Source: Owenia fusiformis | Lineage: Eukaryota; Annelida; Polychaeta; Sabellida; Oweniidae | DNA length: 64,000 nt | Assembly (NCBI GenBank): GCA_903813345.2 | Contig: CAIIXF020000002.1 | Location: 26,721,406 to 26,785,405, forward strand | Direction: 5' to 3' | Shown: positions 41,783 to 63,910 of the stretch, one piece after another | Layout: every line of letters begins with the position of its first letter | Numbering within the stretch: position 1 is the stretch's first letter | Made by a program: the position numbers and the translations under genes | Notes under the pieces: model-generated | The model's input: only the letters and a program-made list of their open reading frames with translations | Databases searched by the model: none | Told to the model about the DNA's origin: nothing

Positions 41783-41981
41783 TTGACACCAACGCGAAAT
41801 TGCAAATCTCTCGTTCGAAACACAGCTCTGTAGCTGATCGGGTATTTGAAGTAGACTAAGTAGCGCTTGTTTTGTATGCGCGCTATATACATTACTGTAT
41901 TGATTCATTGGCTTTGCGTTCACGGTAACGTTGTGAAAAATATCGTTAGCGTTCTTCACGCGTCATGTAAGCTCCGTTTAG

Positions 41982-43572
41982 TATGGTGTAAATTCTGTGT
42001 CAAAAGTATTACATACCTAATTCAGTAGTTTGGGTGCACCAATATAAAAATCAGTGCCTATTTTGTACTCCTAACATATTTAGTGGAAATTCCGGTACCT
42101 ATCTCTATATTAGATGCCTGTTTAAAATTAGATGACCCAACTTTATTTTTCGGTCACCTAATTTTATCTGGTACCCGAATTCTGTACTATGATAAACACT
42201 TAGCCCAATTGTTCTCTCAATCAGTACTGGAATCAATTCCGTATCTAAAAACATTCAGTACGTTAAAAAAATCCGCTACCAGAAAAAATTCCGTACGTCG
42301 AAAAATCGGGTGCCGGAAAAAATTCCGTACGTCGAAAAATCGGGTGCCGGAAAAAATCCTGGACCCGATTATCGCCTCCCTTTATTAAAAGATGTCGTGG
42401 TGGTCGAGCGTCCATAATTTCTTGAACAAAAATATGGATCCGATTATCGCCTCCCTTTGTTAGAAGATGTCGTGGTAATCGAGCGTCCATAATTTCTTGA
42501 ACAAAAATATGGATCCGATTATCGCCTCCCTTTATTAAAAGATGTCGTGGCAATCGAGCGTCCATAATTTCTTGAACAAAATATGGATCCGATTATCGCC
42601 TCCCTTTGTTAAAAGATGTCGTGGTAATCGAGCGTTCAGATATTTCTTGGCCAAATAATCAATCAGGCTATGTACCTGATTGATTTTGAAAGAATTTCTG
42701 GCCAGGGGGGGGGGGCAACCAAATCGGGGGCGATGAAAAAAAGCCCCATAATCATCATCAACATCGTGTTTAGGAGGGTGAGGTATAGTCCTGTGTTATC
42801 CTCCCTTCTGGTTTGTTTAGTACAGTATTCATATTAGCGGTTATTTGCTAGATCTATCTTTGGTATTTTATTTCCCAAAGACAATTGCACGTTGTGGGGG
42901 GGCAGTTGTGGGGGGCAGTTGCACCAAAATTTGGGTAAAATTGGACAAAAAACTGGACACATAATGAAAGGCCCACCTGTTTTAGTCTCAAAAAATATTT
43001 TGAGATTGATGATGATGATTGATGATGCCACTTTGAAATAGCCGCCAGTAAATCCATCCAATCAGGACTCCTGTAACAAATAACGCGTGGGCAAAGCTGT
43101 GTCAAACAATCAAATTAAGGCTTACTTATTCCGGATGGCGGATATAAAATTAATCTGTTATCGCACGGTTTTTGGGAGTGGTGACTTAGACAATGTCCTG
43201 ACGACATCACCTGTAGTAAATACGCATATGTCATGCAATCTGTATCAATGGTGATAGGTCTCGTTCGGGGGGGGGATGGGGGCTGGGAGACAACGTCTGG
43301 TAGCTAAGCTTCCCCTAACCACCGTCAGTACTCATGTGACGGGTCGTGTATATTTGGTAGATCCTATCATATGGTAATGACATTGGTGTGTTATTCCCTA
43401 TCTTCAATCACGTAGAGAGAGGCCGGACATCCCGATCCTGTAGCGGATCTTCTCCCTTATATGTTGGTCATTATAAGGGCCCAAGACTGTTTCGAACTCA
43501 AGGGGGTATTCCATGATTGTTCTTCATCAGCGGCCGAAAGAATGTTGTATGTGATTTGATTCTGAATGATAA
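41982..43572 (+). repeat. Left outer arm with 79-bp tandem repeats
   Basis: It matches 61,461-63,082 in inverse. At ~42,290-42,350 a ~34-bp AAAATTCCGTACGTCGAAAA unit is repeated. At 42,375-42,640 a 79-bp unit (GATGTCGTGGTAATCGAGCG .. ATGGATCCGATTATCGCC) is repeated about four times. A G run at ~42,702 is part of a relict G-tract MITE (GAAAGAATTTCTGGCCAGG). Open frames at 42,083-42,388 and in the mirror arm are copies of each other; they show no known domain. Confidence 0.85.
43165..43535 (+). repeat. ~370-bp direct repeat, outer copy
   Basis: From TTTTGGGAGTGGTGACTTAG through GGCCGGACATCCCGATCC and TAAGGGCCCAAGACTGTTTC to TGTTCTTCATCA. A second copy lies at 44,825-45,180. The outer copy is also present, inverted, at 61,495-61,860. 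No coding frame is conserved between copies. Confidence 0.8.
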
Positions 43573-43739
43573 TGCTGTTTTATTTCTATCATTCAGTTGT
43601 ATTTTAATAGGTTTCCCGTATTCGTTTTTGGCGGGAGGGGGGTGGTTGTTTATGCGTATTGGTTTATTGCATACGGGTGTGGTCAGTTTATTGATAAGTT
43701 TTGGTTTGGTTTGCGGTTAGGCCATGATATGGTCGTGTA

Positions 43740-44830
43740 TGTTATACATGAGTGTATTTAAAGGGTTGTTGGCTTGTTCGTGTTCGGTTGTATCTTGTGG
43801 CATTTTGTGGTGTTTTCAATTTGTTGAGTTGGTGTGCGTTTGGCGGTGACTGTGGTAGGTTAAGGGTGGGTGAATAGCTTTTTGGTAGTTCAGGTGGTTT
43901 ATTTAGTGTTTCAGCTTTCCGTTGGTATATGCGATATGTAGCTAGTATTTCTTGTTGTTGAGATATTAACTTAAATTTACCGTTTAGTGGTCCGTATTTC
44001 AAATATTTCGATTTTCTTGAATTGTATTTTGTTTTAATCGAACGCGTATACGTATTGGTTGATTATATTGGGGTATGGTCAGTTCAGTGTTGGAATTTGA
44101 TTGGTTGTTTTGTTCATTGTTTGCGCTTCATTGTCATGTGTGTTTTGTGTATTTTGTGTGTTTGAGTAGAGATTAATTTGTTCGTGTATGGTTGTATTTT
44201 TTATTTTCCGGCATTTTGCTGTATTTTCGATTTGTTAAGTCGGTTTGAATTTGGTGGTGACTGGCACTGGGGTGGGTCAATGGTAGGTAAATTGTCTTTT
44301 GATGGATCAGGTGGCTTGTTTAATGTTTCAGCTTTCTGTTGGTGTGTGCATTATGTTCGTGGCATGTTTTGTTGTTGAGATATTAACTTAAATGTAGGGC
44401 TTGATGGCCCGTATTTCAAATATTTTGATTTTCCCATATTTGTGTTTTATCGGGAGGGTGTATGCGTATTGGTTAATTGCATCAGGGTATGGTCAGTTCA
44501 ATGTTGAAATTTAATTTGGTTATTTTGTTCATTGTTTCAGCTTCATGGTCAGGTATATGTTATGTTTAAATTTTGTGTATTATAAGAGTTGTTGACTTTT
44601 TCCGTGTTTGGTCGCGTTTTGATGTTTTCGGCATTTTGCGGTATTATCGATTTGTAAAGTTGGTTTGAGTTTGGTGGTGACTGGGATGGGTCTTTGGTGG
44701 TAAATTGTCTTTCGATGGTTCAGGTGGCTTGTTTAATGTTTTAGCTTTCTGTAGGTATGTGCATTATACTCGTGGCATATCTTGTTGTTGAGATATTAAC
44801 TTAAATGTAGGGTTTGATGGCCCGTATTTT
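43740..44830 (+). repeat. 412-bp tandem repeats, left arm, about three units
   Basis: The landmark GAGATATTAACTTAAAT occurs at ~43,962, 44,377 and 44,790. The plus strand is strikingly poor in C and A. The minus-strand open frame at 43,742-44,002 (proline-rich, starts MKYGPLNG) has a near copy in the opposite arm at 49,749-50,072, but other units of the same array have stops, so I do not call it a gene. Confidence 0.8.
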
Positions 44831-45180
44831 GGGAGGGGTTGACTTAGACCATGTCTGAGACATCACCCCTTGTGAACACGCATAAGTCATGCAATCTGTG
44901 TCAAATGGTGAACGGTCTCGTTTAGGAAACCTGGGAGACATAGTCTAGTGTCTAAGCTTCCCCGAACCACCGTCAGTGATTATGTGCCAGGTAGAGTATA
45001 TTTAGTTGATCCTAGGATGATGACATTGGTGTCACTCCTATTGTCATTTTTGTAGAGAAAGGCCGGACATCCCGATCCAGTAGTGAATCTTCTCCCTTAC
45101 TTGTGAGTCACAGTAAGGGCCCAAGATGTTTCGAACTCATGGTTGGTGGTCCATGATATGTTCTTCATCATATGAGCAGC
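44825..45180 (+). repeat. ~355-bp direct repeat, inner copy
   Basis: A diverged copy of 43,165-43,535 in the same orientation (GGTTGACTTAGACCATGTCT, AAAGGCCGGACATCCCGATC, AGTAAGGGCCCAAGATGTTT). It truncates the third 412-bp unit. Confidence 0.8.
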
Positions 45181-46612
45181 CTAAATGAGGGGGAGGGGGA
45201 TGGGTTGTCCCTGATTTTGGTTTGTTTTGGGATTGTCTCCAGTTGGAGACTAAGTAAATTGGTATCATAGTTTAGTTGTGTTTGCAGGTTGTGTCTAATT
45301 GTATTTAATATAGTAGTTTAATTGATTCAGTATTGGGTTGTGACTGGTTCTGTTGCGGTGGTTGGTGTCAGGTTGTGTTGTGTTAATTCAACAATGGGTT
45401 GATTTGAGTTTGGCCTCGTTGGCTATGTTGTGTTGTGTCGGTTTGTTGTTTGGTTGTGCTCGATTGTGTTCGTTTTATAGTCGATTGTGTTTTGGTGGTT
45501 GTTTGTCTAGTTGAGCCTGGTTGTGTTGTGTAAGTTTGGTATCGGGTTGTGTCTCATTAAGTTATGTTAATTTCAAAGTGGTTGTGTTATGTTGTAATTG
45601 TGTTATGTTGGTCGGGTAGTGGGTTGTGCCCATGTAGGATGAAGTATCTGGTTGTGTCAGATTGAGTTTCGTGATTGGTGTTGTTTTCAGAGAGTGTTGG
45701 TTGGTTGGTTTAGCATTCCAGTTTGGTTGTGCCTTATTGTGTTTTGATTGTTTTGTGTAAAATTGGGTTGTGTTTTGCTTTTGTTGTTTTATTATTGGGT
45801 TGTGCCAAATTGTGTTTCGTATATTTGACAATTGGTTGTGTTTTCGGAGGTAAAAATAAGGTTGTCGTATTGGGTTGTGCCGTATTGTGTTGATGGTTTG
45901 TAGTTTGGTTGTGTCTGGTTGTTTTGTTTTAGCTTGGTGTCTAGCTGTGCCTCATTGTGTTCATAATGCGTTGTGTTATGTTGTGATTGTGTTGTGCTGG
46001 TCGGGCGGTAGGTTGTACCCAGTCGGGTGAGGTATCTGGTCGTGTCTGATTGTGTTGTGTGGTCGGTTGTGCCTAGTCGGGTGAAGTATGTGGTTGTGTT
46101 CGATTGTGCATGTGTTGTGTGATTATTGTAAACTCCAGTTCGAGAAAGTTAGTTGTGTGTATTTGGATTTTAGTTTGGTTGTTCCTGATTGTGTTGTGCT
46201 AATTTGAGATTGGGTTGTGTTCTTCGGTAATTGTGAGTCAGGTTGCGTTCTGATTCTCCTGACATAGGTTTTGTTGCGTTGTTGGCGATCTTCTAGGTTG
46301 TGCTTAGTTGTAATGGTTGGTTGTGATAGGTTATGTATTAAGAGGCAGGTTATGCCGGATTGTGTTTTGGTGTATCATGGAGTTTAGATACAAGTTAGTG
46401 GTTTTGGGTATTATATTGTAGGTATATTCGTTAATTCTTGGTAGAGTGAATAGTTCAATGTATTTGTGTACATTGTTAGTATATGTAAAAGGTTTGATAC
46501 CTATTCATACATAGTGAGATCTCTGGTGTGAGAAGCACATCTGGCATGATGGGCGTTAGTCTTGCGTTGTTCTTTGGTTCTGATGAGGTACTTTCTTGTG
46601 GTTCTTTGGATC
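45181..46612 (+). repeat. G/T-rich minisatellite-like tract
   Basis: About 1.2 kb of irregular units around GGTTGTG, GATTGTGTTGTG and CCTAGTCGGGTGAAGTAT on the plus strand (46,020-46,090 shows two clear units). A and C are scarce. Stops are frequent on the plus strand; the minus-strand frame at 45,562-45,831 is Asn/Thr/Gln-rich low complexity and not a credible gene. Confidence 0.7.
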
Positions 46613-46673
46613 TCATTATCTTATTAAACTACAATCCTGGACGAACAAAACAAGACCACCCAAACCAAAAACA

Positions 46674-47313
46674 ATGGAAGTCGAACAAGACGATTTTATA
46701 GCATCTACAGAGCTAACAACAATACCTGATAGCCAAATAAACAAGCTCAAACGGCAACACCATGCAAACTTGGGCAAAACCAAAACCAAGGCGAAGCTGA
46801 AGCTGAACCTCAACAAGAAAGACGCCACCCTACCCTACCCAACCCCCGGGAAAAGCAACATCTGGAAACACTGGGACTCACGACAGCCAAAACTGCCAAA
46901 AACAATCAACATGCCACAGAACAAACAACCTTAGAGTCGCTAAAACAAGAAATCTTTTGGGAAACAAGACACCAAGGCGCCCTACAAGCAATTACCAACT
47001 CGCCCTCGGGGATCCCAAAAGGGCTCATCCCCAAAATACCATGTGGGGTACCCGAAAAAGACACGACTGACATCAAAGAAGCGTTCGACGCAATATTGTA
47101 CAAATGCGGGGACGACTTGAAAGATGCGGCAACCCTACACAGCACACAAGACTTGCCTTCCACAAAAAACAGGTGGACACCCTCACAATCAAACTGGCCA
47201 GCACAATGGGTAAAACTGAAGCAGAGAAAACAACCAAAGAACTACGAAACACAGCTTCAGAATACAAATCAAAAAGGAAACAAGCCACGACACCTAACCA
47301 ACGCAGCAGATAA
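46674..47313 (+). pseudogene. Frameshifted lysine-rich ORF of the giant element, unknown family
   Basis: Three overlapping frames read as one protein of about 210 residues with two frameshifts. Frame 1 from ATG 46,674 (MEVEQDDFIASTELTTIPD, then KTKTKAKLKLNLNKK) runs to about 46,840. The second frame runs to about 47,150 (LESLKQEIFWETRHQ, PKGLIPKIPCGVPEK, DIKEAFDAILYKCGDDLK). The third ends at the stop 47,311-47,313 (FHKKQVDTLTIKLASTMG, EAEKTTKELRNTASEYKSK). It is highly charged and probably helical. I do not recognise the family; a nucleoprotein-like product of the element is one guess. A histone-type stem-loop lies 19 bases after the stop. Sequencing error cannot be excluded as the cause of the shifts. 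Confidence 0.45.
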
Positions 47314-47331
47314 CAATCTTCAACAAACCCC

Positions 47332-47350
47332 GGCCCTTTTCAGGGCCACC
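47332..47350 (+). promoter_or_regulatory. Histone-type mRNA 3' stem-loop
   Basis: GGCCCT-TTTC-AGGGCC followed by ACC matches the metazoan replication-dependent histone 3' stem-loop (six-base stem GGYYCU, four-base loop, AGRRCC, then ACC). It starts 19 bases after the stop codon of the upstream frame, within the usual range for histone mRNAs. A purine stretch CCAAAAGAG lies ~20 bases downstream, where the U7-binding element would be expected, but it is only a weak match. In histone mRNAs this structure binds SLBP and replaces the poly(A) tail. Confidence 0.7.
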
Positions 47351-47749
47351 TATTTCTACCAAAAGAGTTATTACATTTATGAAGTATAACCCAAATTCCT
47401 TGAAATAACCTACCAATGTATGACTGTATGAATGAATAAATGAATGAATATAACAACCAATAACGCATCACCAGGTGACTTGTTCGGGTCAGATAGCATG
47501 GCGCGTATAGTAGAAAGTTCACATATAACAACTACCGACACCAACAATATAACCTTACCCATTCATACACTTCGAACTCACCAAAATCAACCTTACCTAC
47601 CAATCTTAAAAAATATCGCCCCTTTTAACCAAACTTAAGGGAATTAATAAAAAGCGACATCTTCCTATAAAACCGACAACAATTCCGCAACACACGGAAA
47701 ACAAGATCTGAATATTCATATACGGGAAGACAGCAGAAAGACAGCCCCC
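47351..47749. other. A/C-rich non-coding sequence
   Basis: It includes a fragment (47,465-47,515, CACCAGGTGACTTGTTCGGG) related to the left part of the 7783-8207 MITE, and AATGAATAAATGAATGAATA near 47,432. No gene is supported. Confidence 0.4.
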
Positions 47750-50227
47750 AAAATCAATTCAATATCTCCACAACAAAACATGCCACCAACACAACACACA
47801 CACCAACACGAAGCCAAAACAAAACACAGAACAACCAAACCATTCAAAACAAATTAACCCACCAAATGGGTACCACATACGCCACCAAACCAACACCACA
47901 TCCACAAACCAAAACACCTCAAAACTCAGATTAAACCCCAAAAAACGGTTATGCGCAAACAAGTTCATAACTCCCTCAAAACAGATACTATCAACACAAA
48001 AAATACCTCACAATAAAGGATAAAGAAAAAACAACACAACTAAACCAGACTTAAACAATAAACCAATCACACACAGACACAATCAACCAATATGCATACA
48101 CCCTCCCGATACAAAACAAATGTGGGAAAATCAAAATATTTGAATTACGGACCACGAAACCCTATATTCAGGTTAATATCTCAACAACAAGATATGCCAC
48201 CAACATAATACACACACCAACAGAAATCTAAATCATTAAACAAGCCACCTGGACCATCAAAAGACAATTTATCTACTATAGACTCACCCTAGTCACCACC
48301 AAACTCAAACCAACTTAACAAATCGAAAATACCGCAAAATGCCGAAAACACCAAAACGCGACCAAACACGGAAAAGCTAACAACTCTTCTAATACACACA
48401 ATATGGACATAAAATATACCTAACCATGAAGCTGAAACAATGAACAAAACAACCAAATAATATTACAACACTGAACTGACCATACCCTGTGGCAATCAAC
48501 CAATACGCATGACCTTCCCGATAAAACACAAATATGGGAAAATCAAAATATTTGAAATACGGGCCATCAAACCCTACATTTTAGTTAAAGGTGCAATAAT
48601 TAGTGCAGAGGGGTCATTCAGCGATCATGGACCAGTGTCAAAATATATTTAAGTTTGGATATTTCATCAAGACTAACATCTATTTTTATTATCTGCACAG
48701 AAAAGCCCTAGATAAACATTATTTTAGCTGTTATTCTTCTTGAAACATGGTGGGTCTTAAAAATATAAAAGTGGAAGTCCCCTTTTTGAAGCTTTGAACT
48801 GAATTTACACTTCTTAATGCTGAAATTGATAATTTATCCATACATTTTAAGAAAATAGTTATGTCAAAGAAGATGTTAAACCAAATGTTGCCTTGATAGC
48901 TCAGAAAAAATGAAAAAACTTTCCTATTTTCTCTACAGTCCTTATTGCCCCTTTAATATCTCAACAACAAAACATGCCACGAACATAATGCACACACCAA
49001 AAGAAAGCTAAAACATTAAACAAGTCACCTGAACCATCAAAAGACAATTTACCTACCAAAGACCCATCCTAGTCACCACCAAACTCAAACCAACTTTACA
49101 AATTGATAATACCGCAAAATGCCGAAAACACCAAAACGCGACCAAACACGGAAAAAGTCAACAACTCTTTTAATACACACAATATGAACAAAACATATAC
49201 CTGACCATGAAGCTGAGACAATGAACAAAACAACCAAATTAAATTTCAACATTGAACTGACCATACCCTGATGCAATTAACCTATACGCATACACCCTCC
49301 CGATAAAACACAAATATGGGAAAATCAAAATATTTGAAATACGGGCCATCAAGCCCTACATTTAAGTTAATATCTCAACAACAAAACATGCCACGAACAT
49401 AATACACACACCAACAGAAAGCTGAAACAATAAACAAGCCAATTGATCCATCAAAAGACAATTTACCTACCATAGACCCACCCCAGGCACCACCAAACTC
49501 AAACCGACTTAACAAATCGAAAATACAGCAAAATGCCGGAAAATAAAAAATACAAACATACACGAACAAATTGATGCCTCCTCAAACACACAAAATATCA
49601 ACACAAAACACACATGACAATTAATGAAGTGCAAACAATGAACAAAACAACCAAACCAAATTCCAACACTGAACTGACCATACCCAAATACAATTAACCA
49701 ATACGTATACGCGTTCGATTAAAACAAAATACAAGAAAATCGAAATATTTGAAATACGGACCACTAAACGGTACATTTAAGTTAATATCTCAACAACAAG
49801 ATATACTAGCTACATATCGCATATACCAACGTAAAGCTGAAACACTAAATAAACCACCTGAACTACCAAAAAGCTTTTCACCCACCCTTAACCTACCACA
49901 GTCACCGCCAAACGCACACCAACTCAACAAATTGAAAACACCACAAAATGCTACAAGATACAACCGAACACGAACAAGCCAACAACCCTTTAAATACACA
50001 CAATATCAATGTATAACATACACGACCATATGGCCTAACCGCAAACCAAACCAAACCAAAACTTATCAATAAACTGACCACACCTTTATGCAATAAACCA
50101 ATACGCATAAACAACCACTACCTTTATGCAATAAACCAATACGCATAAACAACCACCCCCCTCCCGCCAAAAACGAATACGGGAAACCTATTAAAATACA
50201 ACTGAATGATAGAAATAAAACAGCATT
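47750..50227 (-). repeat. 412-bp tandem repeats, right arm, about five units
   Basis: The landmark TTAATATCTCAACAACAA or close variants occurs at ~47,764, 48,176, 48,584/48,953 (split by a MITE), 49,370 and 49,783. It is the inverse of 43,572-44,830 but with more units, so unit number has changed since the arms separated. A small tandem duplication, CTTTATGCAATAAACCAATA, occurs at ~50,084 and ~50,121. Confidence 0.82.
48589..48952. mobile_element. PiggyBac-type MITE with TTAA duplication
   Basis: The ends are AGGTGCAATAA and TTATTGCCCCT, flanked by TTAA on both sides (48,585-48,588 and 48,953-48,956). The neighbouring 412-bp units keep the empty site (AAGTTAATATCTC), which confirms the insertion exactly. 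Its right part (GATGTTAAACCAAATGTTGCC, GATAGCTCAGAAAAAATG, in pieces) resembles 3740-3830 in the hAT-like element. Confidence 0.9.
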
Positions 50228-50343
50228 CACAACGAGAAACACTATATAATAAACATCAATACGACGAGATAATAGATTTATTATCCAAATTGAATAATAA
50301 CTGATAAGATCAGGTACTGTTGAATAATATTCTGCCCGGGATT

Positions 50344-52077
50344 TCAGGCCCGTAAGACACTTTTCTCCAAGGGGGTGCGGTTTTTAGCTTACTAAACAGA
50401 ATATAAAATTGTCAATTTTTTTGCCGCGTAAATCAAATCGTGTAAGTCAGAGGGGGGGGGGGCTCATTTACTCCCTATATTGGTTTGGAATTAACAAATG
50501 CAACTTCCAAACGTTCCAATTGTTTTGTGGGGGGTGTGAGGAGTGGTCCACTCCCCCTAGAAAATTTTACAGTTTTGAGATGCTATTTGGTGCTTTCTGG
50601 GCACTTTCAAAGTGTAAGTTTCCAAGTAGTACGCCACCACCATGGGAATAAGAGTTGCGAATAAAAAACCGAGCTTTCAGGGGGTCTGGGGGTTCTCCCC
50701 CAGGAAAATTTTGAAATTTGGTTGTATTTGGAGCGAATTTGCAACCATCTGGTACGCCTGTGCGTAATGAGTCAATAGGAAAAATGTGTATTTTTTCAAA
50801 TTCTTTTGGGGGTGTCAAAGTGGATGAGAGGGTGAAGTGGGGTGTGGTGCCAGTAGGGGAGCAAGGGGTTGTCCCCCAGAAACATTGACCATATGAAGGT
50901 GCTATTTGATGATGTCTGGGCACTTAAAAAATGTCTGAGACAATACATGAAATTCGGAATATTTTTTTTGTTTTGTGGGGGATGTGAGGGGTGGCTAACT
51001 CTCCTAGAAAATTTTACAATTTAAAAATGATATTTGATGCTTCTGGGCACTTTTAAAGTGTATTAGTCAATAAAAACATTGAAAAACAATCACAATTTTT
51101 TCAAATTTTGGGGGTGTCAAAGGGGGGGGGGGTGCCAGAGGGGGAGGTGGGGCTGGGGTGCCAAAGGGGGAGCAAGTGTTTGTCCCCCATATCAAAATTT
51201 ATGATACCAAGGTGCTATTCGATGAAGTTCGGGCACTTTAAAAGTGTCTGTGCCTAAAAGTGCCTATTTCCCAAGAAAATTTTACAATTTTAAGATGCTA
51301 TTTGGTGCTTTCTGGGCACTTTAGTCAATAAAGTCAATAAAAAATTTTTTTGGGAGGGGGGTGTTAAGGGGGGGGGGTGGCAGAGGGGGAGGTGGAGTGG
51401 GGATGCCAGAGGGCGAGTAAGTGTTATCTTCCAGAATCATTAACTTTATCAAGGAGCTATTTGATGATGTCTGGGCAATTTAAAAGTGTCTGAGACAATA
51501 CATAAAACAAATTCAGAACTTTTCCATTGTTTTGTTTGGGGTGTGAGGGGTGGCCCACTCCCCCTAGAAAATTTTACAATTTTACAACGCTATTTGGTGC
51601 TTTCTGGGCACTTTCAAAGTGTATGAGTCAATTAAAGAATTTGAGAAAATCACAATTTTTTTTTTGGGGGGGGGGTCAAGGGGGGGGGGTGCCAGAGGGG
51701 GAGGGGGTCTATGCAAGTGCAAGTTGCAAGAGGGGGAGTAAGTCTCCCAGAAACACTAACTATATCAAGGAGCTATTTGATGATGTCTGGGCACTTTAAA
51801 AGTGTCTGAGACAAAACACTAAAATAAATTTAGAACTTTTCCATTGTTTTGTGGGGGTGTGAGGGGTGGCCAATACACCTAGAAAATTTTACAATTTTAA
51901 AATGCTATTTGGTACTTTCTGGGTACTTTCAAAGTGTATGAGTCAATGAAAAAAAATTACAAAGAAAAATATTTTTCAAAAAAAAATTTTTTTCAAATTT
52001 TTTTTTTCAAATTTATTTTGGGGGTGAAAAAGGGGGGTGCGGTCGCACCCATCGCACCCCCCCATCTGACGGCCCTG
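50344..52077. repeat. G-rich tandem array between GGGTGCG ends
   Basis: About five ~300-bp units carry TAGAAAATTTTACA, ATGCTATTTGGTGCTTTCTG, GGGCACTTTAAAAGTGTCTG and long G runs (GGGGGTGCCAGAGGGGGAGG). The array opens CAGGCCCGTAAGACAC and closes GTGCGGTCGCACCCATCGCA then CCCCCCATCTGACGGCCCTGG-like text, so it is probably one large member of the G-tract MITE class. Open frames here are repeat artefacts. Confidence 0.7.
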
Positions 52078-52520
52078 GATTTGTTATTAATCATATAGAA
52101 ATGTCTTATCCGAACAGCTTACATGTACGTATTATCCGTTGCAGCCATTAACAATTTTACATATCTAATTAGCTAAGTAAATAAACATGCGTCGACACAG
52201 TCGCAGTTGACTATGAAAAGTTCAATCATCAATCTTATTTTTATTTTCTTGATTTAAAGATTTATTAAGAAAATGTTTGATTTTTAAGTTCAACCTTTAA
52301 TTCTTATTATCAAGAACGCGCATGCAAATTCGCCAAACATGTACATTATTTGCAGTCTGCGCAATTTAATGTAAATCATTGTACATTTTTCGATATACTG
52401 TAATACTATTCATTATTTGTAAAATTGAACCGAATATAATCTAAAATTAATCAGCTTTAAATACAATGTCATAAAAGTTGCCTTAAAACAATACAATTCG
52501 TGCGTTTGTAAATGCTCTAA
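52078..52520. other. AT-rich non-coding sequence
   Basis: No repeat or gene is recognised. Confidence 0.4.
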
Positions 52521-52610
52521 AGCCCCGCTAGTATATGAACGAATCCTAAATAGAAATGAGTGAAATTCGTTCCCATTAGTGTGTACACGTTCTACACCGA
52601 GACTTCTCCT
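52521..52610 (+). repeat. Possible Harbinger left-end fragment
   Basis: AGCCCCGCTAGTATATGAAC resembles the Harbinger end AG/CCCCCCTCACATATGAAC at 27,526, and GAAATTCGTTCCCATTAGTG at 52,562 resembles CAAATTCGTTCTCATTAGTA at 27,594. The right end was not found. It is a diverged relative or a solo end. Confidence 0.5.
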
Positions 52611-53961
52611 TTAAATCAAATCAGTCCACTAGTATGAGTTAAGAATGGACAGAGGGACGGAGGGCTTCATTCAATGGGATAATTAAGATATTTCAAAACC
52701 AGTGTCATTCTTCTATGCATACATCACTCCAATCATAACATAAAACAAGCTGTTTATTTTAAAACTATTCTTTACGAATTGATGATAAGTGTATAATGTT
52801 CAATCATACAAATCGCAGTCAGTGATTGTTCTCCACACTCACCCCTCCCCCTTCCTGACATGAACTATTTTGTAAAACCATTGACAGTGTGGAAAGGATT
52901 CTTACACTCGAGTGTCAAGGAGGGGGGGGGGCAGTTACAGAAATATACAAGGCGATGGTTCAAATTAGACAATTTTCAAAACTGCTCAACATGGTGAAAA
53001 CTTCACGTTTTTAAAGAATGCTTGCCCGGCGAGTGGTTTGCTTTGTATTGCGAGAGAACAAAAACTTTGAGTTATTAGATTACTATCATTAATCTAAACA
53101 ACTTTTTAAACCGTCTCTGACTACATATCATGCCAATTAATACCATTATTGTGTTGACAGGATTAAATATGATATCTATGGAATTATAATTTAATGAACT
53201 CAATCGTCTAAATGATAATAAGTTCATAATTTAGTCTTGGCTGACTAGTCTTGCATCATCAGAGTTGGATTGCAAATACCTCCCTAAATCAAATATTTAA
53301 AATTTACAAATTTACTAGTGTACGGGGTGGGGAAACAAGTCTCCATCCAACCACTAAAGTTTAAAAAGAAGACTATAGTGTCCCGTGAATTCATTATAAT
53401 TATCTTAGACAATGGTGAAGCGGTACAATCCTTGGAGTGTTAATTACTCGGAATGCAAGTTTGATTTAAAATAACTCCTTTGGATCAAATATTTAAATTC
53501 TACTAGAATGCGGGGAGTGGAAACAAGTCTCCATTCAAGCACTAAATATCAAAAGAAAGATTTCAGTACCCCTTAACTTCACTCCCGGACTTCACTATTC
53601 ACCACCACCCTCCCCTTCCCCAAGTATCCCTTATGACCCCAGAATGTTCGTTTCTGTGCCCCCCCCCTGTCCATGGCCAGTAAGTAATCTATGTGTATAT
53701 TGGCTCCCTCCCAAAGGTGGGAAAACCAGATGCAGGCATAGACATTGACAAGGTGAGGGGATTTAAATATAAAAATAGTCTTGTTTTTGGCTCTGACTTA
53801 TATATTTTGGCACTGTTTAACGAAGCCGGTTTAAGGAATGAGAGGCAGAAATAATTCCCCTTTGTCTTTATCCTTCCACAATCGGCAGATAAGAGTGGCT
53901 CTGGCATACCAGAATGAGATGGCCTGTCTTTACTGTAATCAAGATATGGTACCTAAGCGCA
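52611..53961. other. Non-coding sequence with a short direct repeat
   Basis: GTGGAAACAAGTCTCCATTC-like text occurs at ~53,330 and ~53,517, about 190 bp apart, each preceded by AATCAAATATTTAAA or similar. G run at 52,921-52,930 and C run at 53,660. The minus open frame at 53,689-53,907 has no recognisable domain. Confidence 0.4.
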
Positions 53962-54245
53962 GTTATTTTGGTTTTATAACGGGGATATTGCTCGAGCTTG
54001 AATAACAAATAAAAGGCATGTTCTTATTTCTGTATTTGACCTTTGATTGTGTATTTAGTTGAGCTGCACGCCAAACTTTAAGATTGTTAAAACGCTTAAA
54101 ATAAAACTTTATTCCTCTCAATTTACATAAAAATGAAACAGATTAGATTCGAATCTCAGTCACACCAGCACCACTGGTCAAAGGAAGTACAAATATCTAT
54201 ATTAATCAAATGTCTGAGAATTTGATAACTGTCTGGGATCCAATG
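53962..54245 (+). repeat. Internal block shared with 12,001-12,284
   Basis: The orientation and content are as at 12,001 (TTTTGGTTTTATAACGGGGA, TGAAACAGATTAGATTCGAA, AACTGTCTGGGATCCAATGT). It ties the two ~11-kb elements into one family. Confidence 0.8.
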
Positions 54246-54781
54246 TTAATTTTATTGAAGCAAACTAAGAAAAGTATAAAGATGAATTTTAAACGTTTAG
54301 AGGGAAAAGTCAAATATGCATTGTAACCCTAAAAATAATTCATTAAAGTGTCGTACACATTTTATAACATTTATATAAATAAAACAAATAAAGCACAACC
54401 CTAATGCCCAATAATGAATTCATATCGGCGCTAAACGGCCCTTGCAATAAAAACGCATCGAAGCAGGGAATGCTTGGAAAATTCTTCCGAGACTGACTTT
54501 TGTTATTTCAAAATTGAAATATGCCTAATTCCTATGAACACGCGATCTTTTTCCCTGGGTTTTACTCTATTTTAGATTTACTAGATTTACTAAAATGTTT
54601 ATATGATGATTGCGTTTGCTTCTCACGAGTTCATTGAAACGTTCAGTCGTAAAACTTTAGAGATCAAAAGACTAATTAGGCACCTGATTGCGAAAGTTTG
54701 ATTGCATTTCGATCGCCGGGATTTTACAAACGTATTGTTTAAGTAGCGATCGTGTTCTTGGGATCTTGATAACTTCCTATT
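54246..54781. other. Non-coding sequence
   Basis: AT-rich; nothing recognised. Confidence 0.4.
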
Positions 54782-54785
54782 TTAA

Positions 54786-57666
54786 GGGGACTCATCTCTA
54801 ACCTAGCCGATTTTGGGATACCCTGCACGCACTGTTTATGTTTCTTTTTTCCGAAGGGTATCATATATGCTTTCATTTGATGTAAAAAACATTAGATGTT
54901 AGCCATCAAAATATTTCACTTCATCGTCTGAAAGATGGGTGTGACTTTACGGAAAAAGCGCCTCAATTTACCCGTTTCACTAGAATACGCTTGCTTTAAA
55001 AGCGACACGTTCTCAATTTATCAATGATTGATAGGAAAATCGTCACACGGCCACCAAGATTGTTTTTAATTTACGGCATTTGATAAGCTGAAGACTTTTG
55101 ATGCCAATTATTTTTCATGGGTACTAATAAAGCATAATATGAACAGCTTAGATAAAGAGTTTTGACCCCTTACCCAAGTTCGGCAGTGCAATTGACGCCA
55201 TATAAAATTTTAATTGTATTCCAATTTTCATAAACTTTGACATTTTTTGAGGAAAAAACTAAAACATTGACATATTGTTTTTATTGTTTCAAACAATAGT
55301 TCACGTACCCCTAAATGACATTTGAAAATATCAAAAGGTTCCACCGTCGTTTTTTTCTGTTATTTAGATTCAAAATGTCGACGTTTTCTGATATTTTTAA
55401 GAATTTCATCAATTATCTCTCCAACAAGAAATGTTTATATTGCTCACCGGTATTGTTTCGCCATACGCATATAAGAGATGTGAATTATTATACAACCGCT
55501 TAACATGTCTTTGATTAACTTCACTTTGATTATCTGAAGTTCCAAGAAAATTCGATCCGGGGTAAATAAAGCATTATTATATCAATCTTTGTAAAGGCCT
55601 CTTACCCCTTACCCAAATTCGGCAGTACAATTGACGTCATATCAAATTTTAATTGACTTTCAATTTTCATAAACTTTGACATTTTTTGAGGAAAAAACTA
55701 AAACATTGACATATTGTTTTTATTGTTTTAAACAATAGTTCACGTACCCCTAAATAACATTTGAAAATATAAAAAGGTTCCACCGTCGATTTTTTCTGTT
55801 ATTCATTTTCGGAATTTCGGCTTTTTTTATATTTTCAAGAATTTCATCGATTATCACCAGCAAAAACTGTTTTTAGTGCGAAACGGTATGATCTCGCTAT
55901 ACGTGTTATTGGGCATGCGAATCATTTTACAATCGCTTAAAATGATATAAATGCAATGCCTTTTATTATCTAAATAGTTTGAATGTCAAGAAAATTAAAA
56001 TTAGGGTAAATAAAGCATCATAAAACCAACCTTTGTAAAGAGTTGTGACCCCTCACCCAAGTTCGGCAATAAAAATTACGCCATGTCGAACTTAAATCAC
56101 CTTATTACCATAAACTTTGACATTCTTTGAGGAGAAAAATAAAACATTGACATATTGTTTTTTTTGTTTTAAACAACAGTTCACGTACCCCTAAATGACA
56201 TTTGAAAATATAGAAAAGTTCCACCGTCGATTTTTTCTGTTATTTAGATTCAAAATTTCGGCTTTCTATGATATTTCTAAGAATTTCATCAATTATCTCC
56301 AACAAGAAATGTTTACATTGCTCACCGGTATAGTTTCGCCATACGCGTATAAGACATGTGAATCATTATACAATTGCTAAAAATGTCTTTGATTAACTTC
56401 AGTTTGATTATCTGAAGAGTTTGAGTTCCAAGATAATTCGATTCGAGGTAAAAAAAAGCATTATTATATCAATCTTTGTAAAGGCCTGTGACCCCTTACC
56501 CAAATTCGTCAGTACATTGACGCCATATCAGATTTTAATTGACTTTCAATTTTCATAAAATTTGACATTTTTAGGGAATAACTAGAACATTGACATATTG
56601 TTTTTATTGTTTTAAACAATAGTTCACGTACCCCTAAATAACATCTGAAAATATAAAAAGGTTCCACCGTCGATTTTTTCTGTTATTTATTTTCGGAGTT
56701 TCGGCTTTTTCTTATATTTTCAAGAATTTCATCGATTATCACTAACAATTTTTTTTTAGTTCGAAACGGTATGATCTCGCTATACGTGTTATTGGGCATG
56801 CGAATTATTTTATAATCGCTTAAAATGATACAAATGCAATGCCTTTTATCATCTGAATAGTTTGAATTTCAAGAAAATTCAAATGAGGGTAAATAAATTA
56901 AAGCCTTATGTAAGACTAACATTTGTAAATGGTTCTTGACGCAATGTTGAATTTCAATCGCCTCTTTATTTCAATAAACTTTGATGTTATTTGAAGTAAA
57001 AAATCGATGGTGAAACTTTTTTTATTTTAGATGTTTTTAAGAGGCACACAACTCGGTGGCTATACCGTAGGCTAAAACGATTTTCTTATACATCAGTAAT
57101 ATATGGGATACTTATCATTTTGATTTCAAAGGTAATATATGATGAAACCTTATATAAATTGCTCATACAAATGGCATTTAGCGGAAAAAAGAAAAAAGCA
57201 AGTTACATGCTGGTTTGCCATGTCTATAAAACATTTGCATGCTTGTTATACTGCTGGAATAAAGCGAACTAAGTTTGAACGAATACAAGAAAACAAAGCA
57301 AACACCCAATTCAAATTATGCAATTATTTGGGAAATCAGTGACGTATAGGTTATTTGTTTGTTTAATTGTTGATGGGGCAATGTGTCACTGACGTCACAG
57401 ATGATGGTACCATATTCCAAGAATTCGTGAACAAGAGTGTTATATGACGTCATGATAAAACACTGCTTCGAGTGAGGAGCCCATAGTTGCTATGAGTTAC
57501 TATGTCGTAATGTGTCATATACCGTCATTCAGCGTCATTAACATTTAATTATAGAACACTTGTCAAACGTGAAGTTAACAAACAAGCTTTTCCTGGAGAT
57601 ATATATTTTCTGTTCTGCAACTGGCAGGTGTATCACCATTGTCGTAAGGGTTAGAGATGAGTCCCC
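54786..57666. mobile_element. 2.9-kb element with TTAA duplication and GGGGACTCATCTCTAACC ends
   Basis: The left end is GGGGACTCATCTCTAACC and the right end GGTTAGAGATGAGTCCCC, an 18-bp perfect inverted repeat. TTAA flanks both sides (54,782-54,785 and 57,667-57,670). A TTAA target is the piggyBac hallmark. The interior is filled mainly by a 441-bp tandem array (55,160-56,925) and has no transposase frame. Near its right end, 57,345-57,430 resembles 2217-2390. Confidence 0.85.
55160..56925 (+). repeat. 441-bp tandem array with dimeric higher-order structure
   Basis: TGACCCCTTACCCAAGTTCG or its variants begins units at ~55,165, 55,606, 56,047 and 56,487. Units 1 and 3 share AACAAGAAATGTTTA and TTTCGCCATACGC, whereas units 2 and 4 share CGAAACGGTATGATCTCGCT and TTATTGGGCATGCGAA, so the true repeat is an ~882-bp dimer present twice. 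The 61-62-codon frames at 55,315 and 56,195 are 880 bp apart for that reason and are not genes. Confidence 0.85.
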
Positions 57667-57670
57667 TTAA

Positions 57671-58580
57671 GTTTTGGGTTGAAAGCAATGAGTAGGCTTA
57701 TGTCGGACTTTCTCAAGTCCACATAATGAAACAATATCCCTTTATATTAGTCCAATCGGAATTTGCATAAGCATACCAGTTTTATATTGCAAAAAGAACT
57801 GTAATTAATAGCCTACATAAAAGCATCATGATAAATAAAACATTAAAGCATATATAAAGCCTATTGATATCGCACCCCCCCCCCTCCTGGTTACGCCTGT
57901 GGATATTTTGGCAACTTTCACGTTTACCCCGCCCCCTAATAATTCTTGCGCCCCCTCTAAATATCAGACCCGTCAGGCGTTGAGGCATGGATCAGGATAC
58001 CCTGACTCCCAAGCTGTGCGACTTCTGGCAACCGCTACCTATATTCCCGGGGAAAACGCTTTTAGAAAAATTGTCAAATATGGTCGTGTGTGGGCAAACA
58101 CGGAGGAGGAGGAGAGGGGTGTGTGCATTGTGTGCGACCCTTCATCAGTTGTGTACCTTATTTTTTCTATGAATTTCTTCCGAATAGTTATGCTAGAGGG
58201 GTTCTGATATTTATTTCTGTTTTCAAATGAAATAATTTCACCCTTGCCCGACTGACTTGTAGATAATGCACGAATCAAATAGCATGGAGATCAGATAATC
58301 AGGTTGATTCGTATTTTCGCAATCAGATGAATTAACTTATTGTTTTCTCTGATTAAAAAGCAGTTTGGAGCTACTTTTACAGGATTTGTAAATTCGCAAT
58401 CAGACTGGCTTATTTTAATATTTAGTCAGTGAAAGAGGAGGGGACTATAATGTAGAAAATTGTTTTGATTTCGACACTTACTGAATAATTTATCACAATT
58501 GTTAAATAAGCAAACAGAAACAGGTTTAAAAATGAGAATAGAGGCAAAAAAGTCTATACATAAAATGTAATTAAAACCCG
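57671..58580. other. Non-coding sequence with a C-run MITE end
   Basis: CGCACC then ten C and TCCTGGTTACGCCTGTGG at 57,870-57,902 is one end of a G-tract MITE. The plus frames at 57,899-58,207 and 57,987-58,172 overlap in different phases; neither shows a domain I know. Confidence 0.4.
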
Positions 58581-59265
58581 GGAATTAAAAGCAATTTTAG
58601 ACTGTTAGATGATCTCTTCTGTAATCAAGGTGATGTTGGTACACTTCCGCCGTTAGAAAAACAAAGACTAAGACAAAGACTATTTAGCAATTAATCCTTT
58701 TGTAATCATTAAATGTTAGATTCTTAATATTTTGTTGGACAATGTTCAGACTTCTGACCAAGATTAAATCATTTATGTTTGTATTTAAAAAATAGTATTT
58801 CAATCAGACAGACGTTCTAATGAGTTAGAAAAATACACTTGTCCATTTCCTCTCAAGAAGTTTTCAAAGGTAATCAAGTCGATTTGTTTGAGTGTTTAGC
58901 ATTGTTTTTCATAACTTGAGGCTTCCATGAACAGAATGACTTTGAAATGAGTTTTTATAGTTTTAGCTTTTATACGGACATGCTTTTTGTATATTTCTAT
59001 ATGAACGTTGTGGTTATGTGATGTAACATCACCCCCCCCCCCCCAAATTACAGGTATACAAATTTTGGTCGGAATGCATTAACTTGCAATTAAAAGCAAT
59101 TTTAGACTGTTAGATGATCTCGTATGTAATCTAGGTGATGTTGGTACACTTCCGCATTTAAGAAAACAAAGACTAAAACAAAGAGAACTAAGCAATTAAT
59201 CCTTTTGTTATCATTAAATGTTAGATTCTTATTTTTTATTGGACAATATTAAGACTTCTGTCTCC
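58581..59265 (+). repeat. Direct repeat, two ~178-bp copies 506 bp apart
   Basis: TTAAAAGCAATTTTAGACTG, GTGATGTTGGTACACTTCCG and GCAATTAATCCTTTTGT occur at 58,586-58,760 and 59,091-59,265. A C run of 12 lies between them at 59,031. Confidence 0.8.
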
Positions 59266-59534
59266 GATTGTTATGCAGGTATGTGTATAAAATCATGTGA
59301 ACAACATTATCGTGGAAACTCCCATATTCATTCTCATAATGTCTTACAGCTATTTCGCAAATGACATAATCCTAAACAACATATGGACATAATATTGCAG
59401 AACTGAGCGAAAAGAAAGGTGGAACAAATCAGATTAAGATATTTTATTTTTGAAATGCACAAAGGGCAACAGTTGAAGAACAAAAGTTAAAGGCGTTGTG
59501 AAATAGATCGTGCTTTTATATGATCCCCTTCTAT

Positions 59535-59605
59535 AGTGCCCTACCCTTTGCAGTTTCGTCTTCTCGTAGTTTATAATTAGACTCTGCACGCAGCGTAATA
59601 GTGCC
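59535..59605 (+). repeat. Dispersed repeat CCTTTGCAGTTTCGTCTT .. TAGACTCTGCACGCAG
   Basis: Shortened relative of 4850-5225 and 60,640-60,715. The TAGACTCTGCACGCAG motif is the best conserved part. Confidence 0.6.
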
Positions 59606-59652
59606 CCTATTATCCATGTTCATGTTCTCATTCGATTTTTCATCAGTTATGA

Positions 59653-59782
59653 CTTGGTAACATTTGCTCCGATTTTCATTACGGCGCCCGGCCGATTGAG
59701 TATTTTGTTCAGAATTGAATACAATTTTGAACAAAATACTCATCGGCCGGGCGCCGGTGCTGAAAATCTGAGCAAATGTGAC
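59653..59782. repeat. 130-bp hairpin with GGCGCCCGGCCGAT core arms
   Basis: GTAACATTTGCTCCGATTTT ... GGCGCCCGGCCGATTGAGTA ... faces TACTCATCGGCCGGGCGCC ... AATCTGAGCAAATGTGAC, centred at ~59,717. The opposing open frames starting MVTFA on both strands are a consequence of the palindrome. Confidence 0.8.
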
Positions 59783-60634
59783 CACGGCATTATAAAAGCA
59801 TACTCTTTAATACACGAACAGATTCAAAATGAGACTTTATCTATCAGAGAAATAAAAATGGAAAATTTGTTTTATGAAAATATTAACTGATGCATTGTTT
59901 AGTATTAAATATTAAGTTTTACAGTCGGAAACCTCAAGGGACGGGAAATTTGATTAAACAAAACGCCGGATTAATATGTGGACAACTTGCAAATGAAATG
60001 TAAGTAACATGACAGAACGAGTATGTACGCCCAATAAATACTTTTATAGTTTTAATGTGCATTCAAAGGACCCCGTTTGTAAAATTGATAGAAATGAATA
60101 GTTTTATTATCGGAAAAAAACTGAGAAATATCTACCCGATTCGACAGAATAGTCATCATCATATCAGTGCGAAAAATTAGCTATATTTATTTTCTATGCG
60201 ATATACACCTGATATTGATAGCCTTCCACGATCATGGTCCGTTGACATCATCAACCTTGTGATTTGCCATAAGTGATTAACCAACATTTTTTGATTAAAA
60301 GTCGGGGTTGACGTTTCTTGACTTTTCACACTGACATCAAAACAAAACATAATTTGAAAATAAAAGGCATAAATGGCCATTAAAAGTACATTTTTGAACA
60401 AAAGTATCAACTTATATTACACTGCACGCAAATACAAAGTGAAAATAACGTCTTCCCGGAGATTGAAATACGGATCGGTAAGTCAACAAATCTATCTGTT
60501 AAATAAACAAGCTTAGCCTATGTCTGCGATTGTTTGTCTGAGTGGCCAGATGTTATCCGTTTCGGATAATAAATTTCTGAGAATACTACTGATATCTAGA
60601 ATACATCTTCCGTGATATTTTTCATAAAACTACC
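59783..60634. other. AT-rich non-coding sequence
   Basis: No repeat or credible gene is recognised. Confidence 0.4.
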
Positions 60635-60715
60635 CTTTGCATTCTTTGACTTCACTTCTTAAAAGAGAGCTTCGTCTTAGTGTAGTTTAACTAGACTCTT
60701 CACGCAGGGTATCAT
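60635..60715 (+). repeat. Dispersed repeat CCCTTTGCATTC..AAGAGAGCTTCGTCTT
   Basis: Matches 4850-4890 closely, joined directly to GTGTAGTTTAACTAGACTC (5195-5213 in the other copy). The ~290 bp that separate these parts at 4.9 kb are missing here. Confidence 0.7.
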
Positions 60716-60951
60716 AAAACAGGCATCTTAGCTGCAATTTTGAATAATAGCGTAATTCATAGCACAATATAAATTAACCCGCCTCTGTTTAATTCAAATA
60801 TGCATTATCCTTAAGATTTATACACTTAGACACCTTTTCATTCTTGATTCGAATTTTTATCTTGTCTTCATCTAAATTTGTGGATTAATAACAGTTTTAG
60901 TATACAAATTGAACATACAAAATGTAGCGTATTGATTACACGTTACAGTGG

Positions 60952-61190
60952 CGTAGCCAGCTTTCAGTCGGGGGAGGGGCGGGGGTCGATCGTGGCATAA
61001 AAAATGTTTTTGAAGATTTGTTTTGAATTTTACAAAAATTGGTGCAACTTCGTTCAAAATCGAGCTAGAAGCTTCAAATAAAAAGCATTTTAAGACTTTT
61101 TACTTCTATCTAATGGTTCTATTTTCATTGGTTATGGAGGGGGGGGGGTGCGATCGCACACATCACATCCCCCTGGCTACGCCTATGGGC
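60952..61190. mobile_element. G-tract MITE with GTGGCGTAGCCAGC ends
   Basis: The left end CAGTGGCGTAGCCAGC and right end CTGGCTACGCCTATGG are inverted. The interior GTCGATCGTGGCATAAAAAA and AAATCGAGCTAGAAGCTTC match 5648-5853. G runs lie near 60,970 and 61,138. Non-coding. Confidence 0.75.
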
Positions 61191-61460
61191 TATATTAATA
61201 TAACAAGGTTATCATATCATGCCAATAGTTAGATGGTTAACTAATATTAACACAAAATAATAATACACGATAATTAAAAAAATAAACCTCGGTATTCGGG
61301 CCTAAAATCCAAGGATACGTGTACCATTACTTAAGTGTAAGCTGCAATACCATATCGAATACCTGTACCATTACTCAATAATAACCACTAGTAAGACCAT
61401 AATAACAAGCTTAATAACTAGCTTATCGCAAGTTATTCCATACGATTTTGTCTTGTGATT

Positions 61461-63082
61461 ATCATTCAGAATCAAATCACATACAACATTCTTTCGGCCG
61501 CTGATGAAGAACAATCATGGGATACCCCCATGAGTTCGAAACAGTCTTGGGCCCTTATAATGACCAACATGTAAGGGAGAAGATCCGCTACAGGATCGGG
61601 ATGTCCGGCCTCTCTCTACGTGAATGAAGATAGGGAATAACACACCAATGTCATTACCCTAGGATCTACCAAATATACACGACCCGTCACATGAGTACTG
61701 ACGGTGGTTAGGGGAAGCTTAGCTACTAGACGTTGTCTCCCAGCCCCCATCCCCCCCCCCCGAACGAGACCTATCACCATTGATACAGATTGCATGACAT
61801 ATGCGTATTTACTACAGGTGATGTCTCAGGACATTGTCTAAGTCACCACTCCCAAAAACCGTGCGATAACAGATTAATTTTATATCCGCCATCCGGAATA
61901 AGTAAGCCTTAATTTGATTGTTTGACACTTTGCCCACGCGTTATTTGTTACAGGAGTCCTGATTGGATGGATTTACTGGCGGTTGTTTCACAGTGGCATC
62001 ATCAATCATCATCATCAATCACAAAATATTTTTTGGACACTAAAACAGGTGGGCCTTTCATTATGTGTCCAGTTTTTTGTCAAATTTTACCCAAATTTTG
62101 GTGCAACTGCCCCCCCACAACTGCCCCCCCCCCCACAACGTGCAATTGTCTTCGGAATATAAAATACCAAAGATAGATCTACCAAATAACCGCTAATATG
62201 AACACTGTTACTAAACAAACCAGAATGGAGGATAACACAGGACTATACTTCACCCTCCTAAACACGATGTTGATGATGATTATGGGGCTTTTTTTCATCG
62301 CCCCTAATTTGGATGCCCCCCCCCCTGGCCAGAAATTCTTTCAAAATCAATTAGGTACATAGCCTATCTTTGGCCTGAGACTAACATAATTTTATGTTAG
62401 TCTCAGCTTTGGCCAAGAAATATCTAAACGCTCGATTACCACGACATCTTTTAACAAAGGAAGGCGATAATCGGATCCATATTTTGTTCAAGAAATTATG
62501 GACGCTCGATTGCCACGACATCTTTTAATAAAGGGAGGCGATAATCGGATCCATATTTTTGTTCAAGAAATTATGGACGCTCGATTACCACGACATCTTT
62601 TAACAAAGTGAGGCGATAATCGGATCCATATTTTTGTTCAAGAAATTATGGACGCTCGATTACCACGACATCTTTTAATAAAGGGAGGCGATAATCGGGT
62701 CCAGGATTTTTTCCGGCACCCGATTTTTCGACGTACGGAATTTTTCCCGGCACCCGATTTTTTCGACGTACGGTATTTTTTCGGGTACCGGATTTTTTTA
62801 ACGTACTGAATGATTTTAGATACGGAATTGATTCCAGTACCGATTGAGAGAACAATTGGGCTAAGTGTTTATCATAGTACAGAATTCGGGTACCAGATAA
62901 AATTAGGTGACCGGAAAATAAAGTTGGGTCACCTAATTTTAAACAGGCATCTAATATAGAGATAGGTACCGGAATTTCCACTAAATATGTCAGGAGTACA
63001 AAATAGGCACTGATTTTTATATTGGTGCACCTAAACTACTGAATTAGGTATGTAATACTTTTGACACAGAATTTACACCATA
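61461..63082 (-). repeat. Right outer arm of the giant element
   Basis: Reverse complement of 41,982-43,572, with the 79-bp tandem units at 62,405-62,705. It differs by a small extra hairpin at 62,371-62,404 (GAGACTAACATAA / TTATGTTAGTCTC). The 111-codon minus frame (62,646-62,981) corresponds to the one at 42,083 and is extended only because of point differences. Confidence 0.85.
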
Positions 63083-63910
63083 GTATAGTTTATAACAGTA
63101 TCGTTTAGTTAGGAGGTTATTTATCAAACAAAAATTAGAAGAAAATGTTGTTAATCTTTAAGTACACTGGACTTGAATTACAAAATATTTTATATGATTT
63201 GCCTCTTGGGTGATTAGAAAAAAATGCTTCTTATTTGGTAACTTTTTGAAATACATCTCTTCATTCGTATTTATTACCTCCAAGAATCGATTTGAAAATC
63301 TAAATAATTTGAGATGGACAAATATAGTGTAAAGACTGTTACATTTCTACTTACTGTTACAAAAATGCACGTGTATTCCCAAGATATGCCTTCCTTACAA
63401 GTTACAAATACAGAAAAAGCATCCAGCACACTCAAATTAACAAGAACAGTATTGCATTCATTAGGCGTCATGTAAGCTCTGTGTAGTTTAAAAAGTATTT
63501 ATCAAACAAAATAAAATAGACGAAAATGTTGATCATCTTTATGTACGCTGGCTTTGAATTACAAAAGGTTTTAAATAATTTGACTCATTTGCGTGTTTAG
63601 AATCGATATCAAAAGTATAAGATAAAATAACTAAGCGTATGGAGAGTCGAAGGATTGCCAAACATTTCGATCAACGCTAGAGTATATTTCGCTTAAAACA
63701 GGCAAAGAAAATGATTTATTCAATAATTTTATATTCTTTACCCTAAAAGCTGTAGGTTTGATAGATTCAGTCAAATTTAAATAATTTTTAAAGCTGGGTT
63801 ACTTCAAATCAAATTATATTCGAAATTGTTATGATTAATCTCAGAGTACTTGTTAAAAATAAATAGCATTTATATACTACTTTCTTGTTTTGTTGTTGTC
63901 TTCTTATAGG
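63083..63910 (+). repeat. Flank with a ~380-bp tandem duplication
   Basis: TTTATCAAACAAAA, GAAAATGTTG..AATCTTTAAGTAC and TTGAATTACAAAA occur at 63,120-63,190 and again at 63,499-63,565. GCGTCATGTAAGCTCTGTGT at 63,466 matches the sequence just outside the opposite end of the giant element (41,970), so the element entered a copy of this duplicated unit. No gene is supported. Confidence 0.65.

Follow-up and report, generated by a model that had tools for sequence, protein, structure and literature searches.

The window, i.e., the whole 64,000-nucleotide stretch of Owenia fusiformis DNA under investigation, harbors a dead copy of a transposon with terminal inverted repeats (TIRs), whose only recognisable gene, ORF1, is followed by a histone-type 3' ending; the overall picture, which we consider likely, is that in live copies of the element the ORF1 transcript would be cleaved by SLBP/U7 to give an S-phase mRNA. 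The ending itself is very probably a conserved functional histone-type signal of the ORF1 family. The features of the element are the following (window coordinates, with the strand where one is assigned):

41976..41981: left target-site duplication GTTTAG, with one mismatch relative to the right one, GTATAG
41982..44829, + strand: left TIR/arm, starting with TATGGTGTAAATTCTGTGTCAAAAGT and consisting in its inner part of ~415-bp subrepeats (self-comparison; terminus shared by two other copies)
44830..46660, + strand: G/T-rich core spacer with no recognised gene
46665..46868, + strand: ORF1 remnant in frame 1, aligned to residues 13-80 of L003 (an intact relative), with its first ATG at 46674 (tblastn)
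46820..47143, + strand: ORF1 remnant in frame 3, aligned to residues 63-172, with a frameshift separating it from the frame 1 part (tblastn)
47116..47313, + strand: ORF1 remnant in frame 2, covering the C-terminal part as far as residue 228, with the stop TAA at 47311-47313 (tblastn)
47332..47350, + strand: histone-type 3' stem-loop GGCCCT-TTTC-AGGGCC plus ACC (RF00032 over the cut-off; kept in relatives)
47359..47367, + strand: histone downstream element CCAAAAGAG (sequence; same spacing as in the host histone genes)
47758..50227, + strand: inner part of the right arm, inverse of 43571-44829
50228..61457: ~11.2-kb nested insertion that interrupts the right arm and lies outside the element proper (arm pairing; not present in the C6 and C2:24.98M copies)
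61458..63082, - strand: outer part of the right arm and terminus
63083..63088: right target-site duplication GTATAG

The stem-loop and ACC that the original prediction had placed at 47,332-47,350 were found at exactly these coordinates, GGCCCT-TTTC-AGGGCC occupying 47332-47347 and ACC 47348-47350 in the window sequence. The covariance-model search that had been proposed along with it gave a match to RF00032 at 47327-47372 (36.0 bits, E 8.8e-07, model positions 1-46 of 46), above the curated Rfam cut-off of 34 bits; it is the sole Rfam match across the 64-kb window, and the sequence has the layout of RF00032, with a 6-bp stem, a 4-nt loop and ACC after the stem. The signal extends beyond the stem-loop reported originally, since the U7-type downstream element CCAAAAGAG belongs to it. 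The latter contains the heptamer AAAAGAG, which begins thirteen bases past the stem, within the ~20 nt required of a U7-complementary element, and is complementary to CUCUUUU of the U7 snRNA; it is a classical U7-type histone downstream element. The same downstream element, with the same spacing, is located behind the histone genes of the same genome. RNA cleavage is predicted between the stem-loop and this element, at ~47351-47355.

The reading frame said to end just before the stem-loop has to be described differently. Its non-histone nature was borne out (no Pfam match), and the gene does end close to the stem, the ancestral ORF1 stop (TAA) being 18 nt upstream of it rather than 19; however, it is not one frame. 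The alignment with the intact relative L003 (C12:22897353, about 230 aa), taken as the reference, distributes the window ORF1 over three frames separated by two frameshifts, and no single open frame runs in the window from 46674 to the stem-loop. Judging from this split, the window copy is a pseudogene and cannot make the protein. A TATA box is also absent from it.

The giant inverted-repeat element proposed originally was recovered by self-comparison at 41982-63082, spanning 21.1 kb, or 9.9 kb without the nested insertion. Its inverted arms hold the ~415-bp subrepeats, with 41979-43573 of the left arm pairing with 61458-63085 and 43571-44799 pairing with 48953-50227. The terminus TATGGTGTAAATTCTGTGTCAAAAGT recurs genome-wide and TATGGTGTAAATTC termini are present in dispersed copies. 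Exact 6-bp target duplications flank the C6 copy (GAATTG) and a TIR relative at C8:33183293-33193489 (L098, L099), which cleanly splits a reverse-transcriptase ORF (GTCGTT) and helps to delimit the termini of the transposon. Since inverted termini and 6-bp target duplications occur together at dispersed sites, the window element is classified on its sequence as a TIR transposon, with no superfamily assigned. No transposase was recognisable in the core, where the only gene is ORF1, without a known domain; non-autonomous TIR DNA transposons lack a transposase too. A DNA search returned 45 matches in the 498-Mb genome (G000), and ORF1 is carried by five complete elements whose ends are closely related:

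the window element
C6:29716881-29728657
C2:24977497-24985035
C12:12735851-12748640
C2:18742555-18754302

The stem is perfect in four of these five, with one mismatch in the C2:24.98M copy; at C2:18.75M, the downstream element contains a small insertion. ORF1 is missing from related 10.4-kb TIR elements, and the 8.4 kb read of one of them (L100) contains no long ORF, so that ORF1 may be cargo.

Other repeated sequences are present in the window. Within the nested insertion lie ~440-bp tandem repeats at 55119-56929 and, at 50547-51929, a family of 61-nt repeats. Another giant inverted repeat is located at 11125-11960 / 21580-22415; its 836-bp arms, 100% complementary, 9.6 kb apart and built of 53-bp repeats, look very recent. 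At 27974-28732, a 252-aa ORF resembles by eye a PIF/Harbinger-type DDE transposase.

The original prediction had suggested searching the other copies of the element for the stem-loop; it was found at the same place past the stop both in other copies and in relatives (about 41-47% protein identity), and on this basis it characterises the family rather than being a hairpin formed by chance. Five deep lineages or more, reaching down to 41% identity at the protein level, have the histone ending behind their homologous ORF1 genes, and the stem is intact in the window group, L003, L023, L028/L030/L093 and L092/L097. In the deeper lineages, which were retrieved by protein search, the stem is always GGCCCT/AGGGCC, with CAC after it and the downstream element soon past the ORF1 stop. 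The loops vary (TCTT in L003; TTTC in L023/L064; TCTC at C518/C420/C1/C5/C11; TTTA at C4:29.5M). RF00032 also scores above the cut-off in L002, L006, L023/L064 and L028, and just under it in the element of L003 (L066, 33.4 bits) and in L030 (31.5 bits). Damaged stems were observed in L004, L005, L012, L090 and L091, mostly copies with broken or truncated ORFs (truncation at the 5' end in L005 and L090, a frameshift in L004). L064 and L030 also share their upstream region, including a conserved TATA box that lies under 100 bases upstream of the ATG. The spacer of the ORF1 family, CTCTACCAAAAGAG, differs from that of the H1 genes, TACTTACAAAAGAG, suggesting descent of the cassette within the family rather than repeated recapture.

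The ORF1 proteins are about 230-260 aa long and 35-47% identical between lineages. The copies at C518 and C5 differ by a dS of 0.36 with a dN/dS of 0.13, and between the deep lineages synonymous sites are near or at saturation (pS 0.67-0.80); from these sequence comparisons, ORF1 is under purifying selection. No compensatory changes occur in the stem within the ORF1 family. Nevertheless, the stem pairs and the downstream element stay unchanged across near-saturated distances while the loop and the spacer change, which is best explained by selection acting to keep them. As to the protein, no Pfam or PDB match exceeded the cut-off, a histone identity included, and the AlphaFold model (mean pLDDT 50, disordered N-terminus, one long C-terminal helix) is too poor to interpret. 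The protein has a basic tail and a predicted long C-terminal helix, and it probably binds nucleic acids. A transposase role for ORF1 was considered and rejected, given the lack of a domain and of a PDB match and a predicted fold too poor to search with.

ORF1 also occurs in a different genetic context. At C518, C420 and C1:50079004-50086002 (L029, L030, L068), it forms, with its stem-loop and a 634-aa reverse transcriptase (Pfam RVT_1, E 6.3e-13), a 6.3-kb unit arranged in tandem and inverted arrays in which no endonuclease domain was recognised. From its DKG, LPKIHK and YIDD-type motifs, this enzyme presumably belongs to a Penelope-like element. A near-identical ORF1, at C1:34082094, adjoins the TIR of the window element. 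Being found both in the 6.3-kb unit and beside this TIR, ORF1 is shared between different element types, either as an element gene or as mobilised cargo. The reverse transcriptase is limited to the C518-type unit, none having been found in the window or in L061-L067, and no hammerhead ribozyme was detected in the loci scanned. The window element was not assigned to the Penelope-like elements, because window-type copies have no reverse transcriptase and show clear TIRs and a target duplication; similarly, the 6.3-kb array at C518 is not a histone repeat, because it contains no core histones and encodes a reverse transcriptase.

In order to survey histone-type endings genome-wide, two exact patterns (the stem GGCCCT or GGTCCT, then AAAAGAG) were scanned over 498 Mb, giving 52 + 74 = 126 sites versus 0 + 0 for the reversed patterns and recovering all three core-histone clusters. 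Histone genes account for about 70 of the sites: the three core-histone clusters contribute 54, H2A genes elsewhere 2 and H1 genes 14 (13 read and one inferred from position and spacer). The published Owenia fusiformis core-histone clusters comprise 35, 29 and four genes, H2A being encoded on the opposite strand (PMC12153100); this layout is matched by the three clusters found here, two of them large and one small. The remaining sites, about 56, are not histone genes, so that the histone ending, which the original prediction regarded as a feature of the transposon, is indeed a feature of its family but not a private one. They consist of 18 ORF1 sites and 38 others, the latter partly read, with some assigned by tandem position or identical flanks and four unread; these 38 include small coiled-coil proteins, Tc1/mariner-like transposases, GDSL-esterase-like genes, a Cys-rich RING-like gene (L072) and a dispersed element (L060/L088). 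Across 26 genes, 99.3% of the stem pair cells are standard (slid controls reach at most 65%); the sole covarying pair, C-G to U-A with both sides changed in 5 of the 26, varies between gene families.

The Tc1/mariner-like genes are, from their sequences, a second and unrelated mobile-element family with histone ends. The ending lies 30-54 nt past the transposase stop in L050 (C3:1551305), in the degenerate L073 (C10:32898215) and in L081 (C2:30913534), the third case, which came from the Rfam search. It is the same histone-type ending as that of ORF1, but behind an unrelated DDE_3-domain protein. L050 is an intact transposase of 337 aa (Pfam DDE_3, E 7.8e-18) with a TATA box; no TIRs were found around it.

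Several other gene types show the same kind of ending. Small coiled-coil-like non-histone proteins are encoded at L034, L035, L038, L046, L051, L056, L057, L079, L084, L052, L058, L077, L069, L076, L080, L082, L086 and L087; tandem arrays of such genes occur at C8:18.5M, C3:16.38M and elsewhere, and they are probably host genes. GDSL/SGNH-esterase-like ORFs with a histone-type stem-loop are located at L048 (C12:29027420), L070 (C1:55259340) and L055/L078, L055 being a fragment. Finally, L060, L085 and L088 (C9:1951023, C10:5272657 and others) represent a dispersed element with at least six near-identical copies and the histone stem-loop on one strand; a divergently oriented 114-aa ORF, ~3.7-5 kb away (two copies checked by position), matches the C518 reverse-transcriptase ORF at its N-terminus only.

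Other explanations of the ORF1 ending can be envisaged. ORF1 might be a host replication-linked gene family, transported as passive cargo by inverted-repeat transposons, whose stem-loop serves the host gene. This agrees with the many other non-histone genes sharing the ending, with the related TIR elements devoid of ORF1, and with copies, such as that at C5:26431983, for which the search found no matching TIR end nearby. Nonetheless, it appears unlikely: ORF1 is present in all five of the closely related complete elements counted, it also lies beside the same TIR at C1:34082094 and in the unit with the reverse-transcriptase ORF, and its copies are dispersed and many of them broken, as expected of a mobile gene.

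The stem-loop could also be a functionless relic of one capture of a histone 3' end, the copies resembling each other through recent ancestry or gene conversion. Agreement within the window subfamily proves little by itself, its copies being 92-98% identical overall; on the other hand, the stem and the downstream element persist at near-saturated synonymous distance where the nearby UTR, the loop and the spacer differ, and most of the damaged stems belong to copies whose ORFs are broken or truncated, which makes a relic very improbable. A captured fragment of a histone gene was likewise rejected, since the protein is non-histone and the ending has been inherited with ORF1 across deep lineages. 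A chance hairpin retains practically no probability, being refuted by the RF00032 match and by the absence of any match to the reversed patterns, as opposed to 126 exact sites.

The preferred interpretation is a conserved 3' end used by the element, and the best reading of the sequences is that transposon genes, together with other genes of this genome, would have their 3' ends processed by the SLBP/U7 histone pathway. The host genome contains an SLBP gene; no convincing U7 gene was found, the best candidate (C9:17266387) scoring 24 bits with an E of about 1. ORF1 is built like a replication-dependent histone gene: its 3' UTR is short, it ends in a stem-loop and a U7-type element, and two of the deep lineages have a TATA promoter. 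In live copies, host SLBP and the U7 snRNP would most likely cleave the ORF1 transcript past the stem-loop; the product would be a non-polyadenylated ORF1 mRNA accumulating in S phase, and the protein might be made while the element DNA replicates, to the benefit of transposition. Since the ending is a family feature, a non-polyadenylated, replication-linked mRNA would be its natural consequence. That the ending times the activity of the element to S phase is plausible, although we propose it tentatively.

Histone mRNAs have been described as a class without the poly(A) tail found on all other eukaryotic transcripts (PMC12775136). TIR transposons and histone endings are each known, and their combination is new as far as our literature search reaches: no report of a transposon or other non-histone gene with a histone ending was found in the open-access papers that it covered. 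If true, a conserved and selected histone ending in a transposon family, within a genome that has dozens of further non-histone cases, would break the histone-only rule and would represent a novel means by which mobile elements tie their expression to S phase; such mRNAs would have escaped RNA-seq based on poly(A) selection. More generally, we lean towards the view that histone-type processing is used in this genome by dozens of non-histone genes and was recruited independently by several mobile-element families (the ORF1 TIR family, the Tc1/mariner-like one and others), tying their expression to DNA replication.

In the giant Terminons of rotifers, which are endonuclease-deficient Penelope-like elements arranged in tandem arrays, coiled-coil ORFs occur alongside GDSL esterases (PMC6431247). 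Like Penelope-like elements and Terminons, the C518/C420/C1 lineage of ORF1 is associated with a reverse transcriptase in tandem arrays; unlike Penelope-like elements, the window-type elements have TIRs and target duplications and no reverse transcriptase, and no hammerhead was detected in the loci scanned. The window element shares with Foldback-type/TIR transposons the inverted arms made of tandem subrepeats, the short conserved termini and the 6-bp duplication, but it differs from them in that no transposase was found in its core and in that it carries a gene with a histone-type 3' end. The closest correspondence of this 3' end is with metazoan replication-dependent histone genes, with which ORF1 has in common the stem, the 4-nt loop, the ACC, the AAAAGAG element with its spacing and the short stop-to-stem distance, and its stem GGCCCT/AGGGCC is identical to that of the host H1 genes; unlike the metazoan replication-dependent histone genes, ORF1 encodes a non-histone protein and resides within a transposon.
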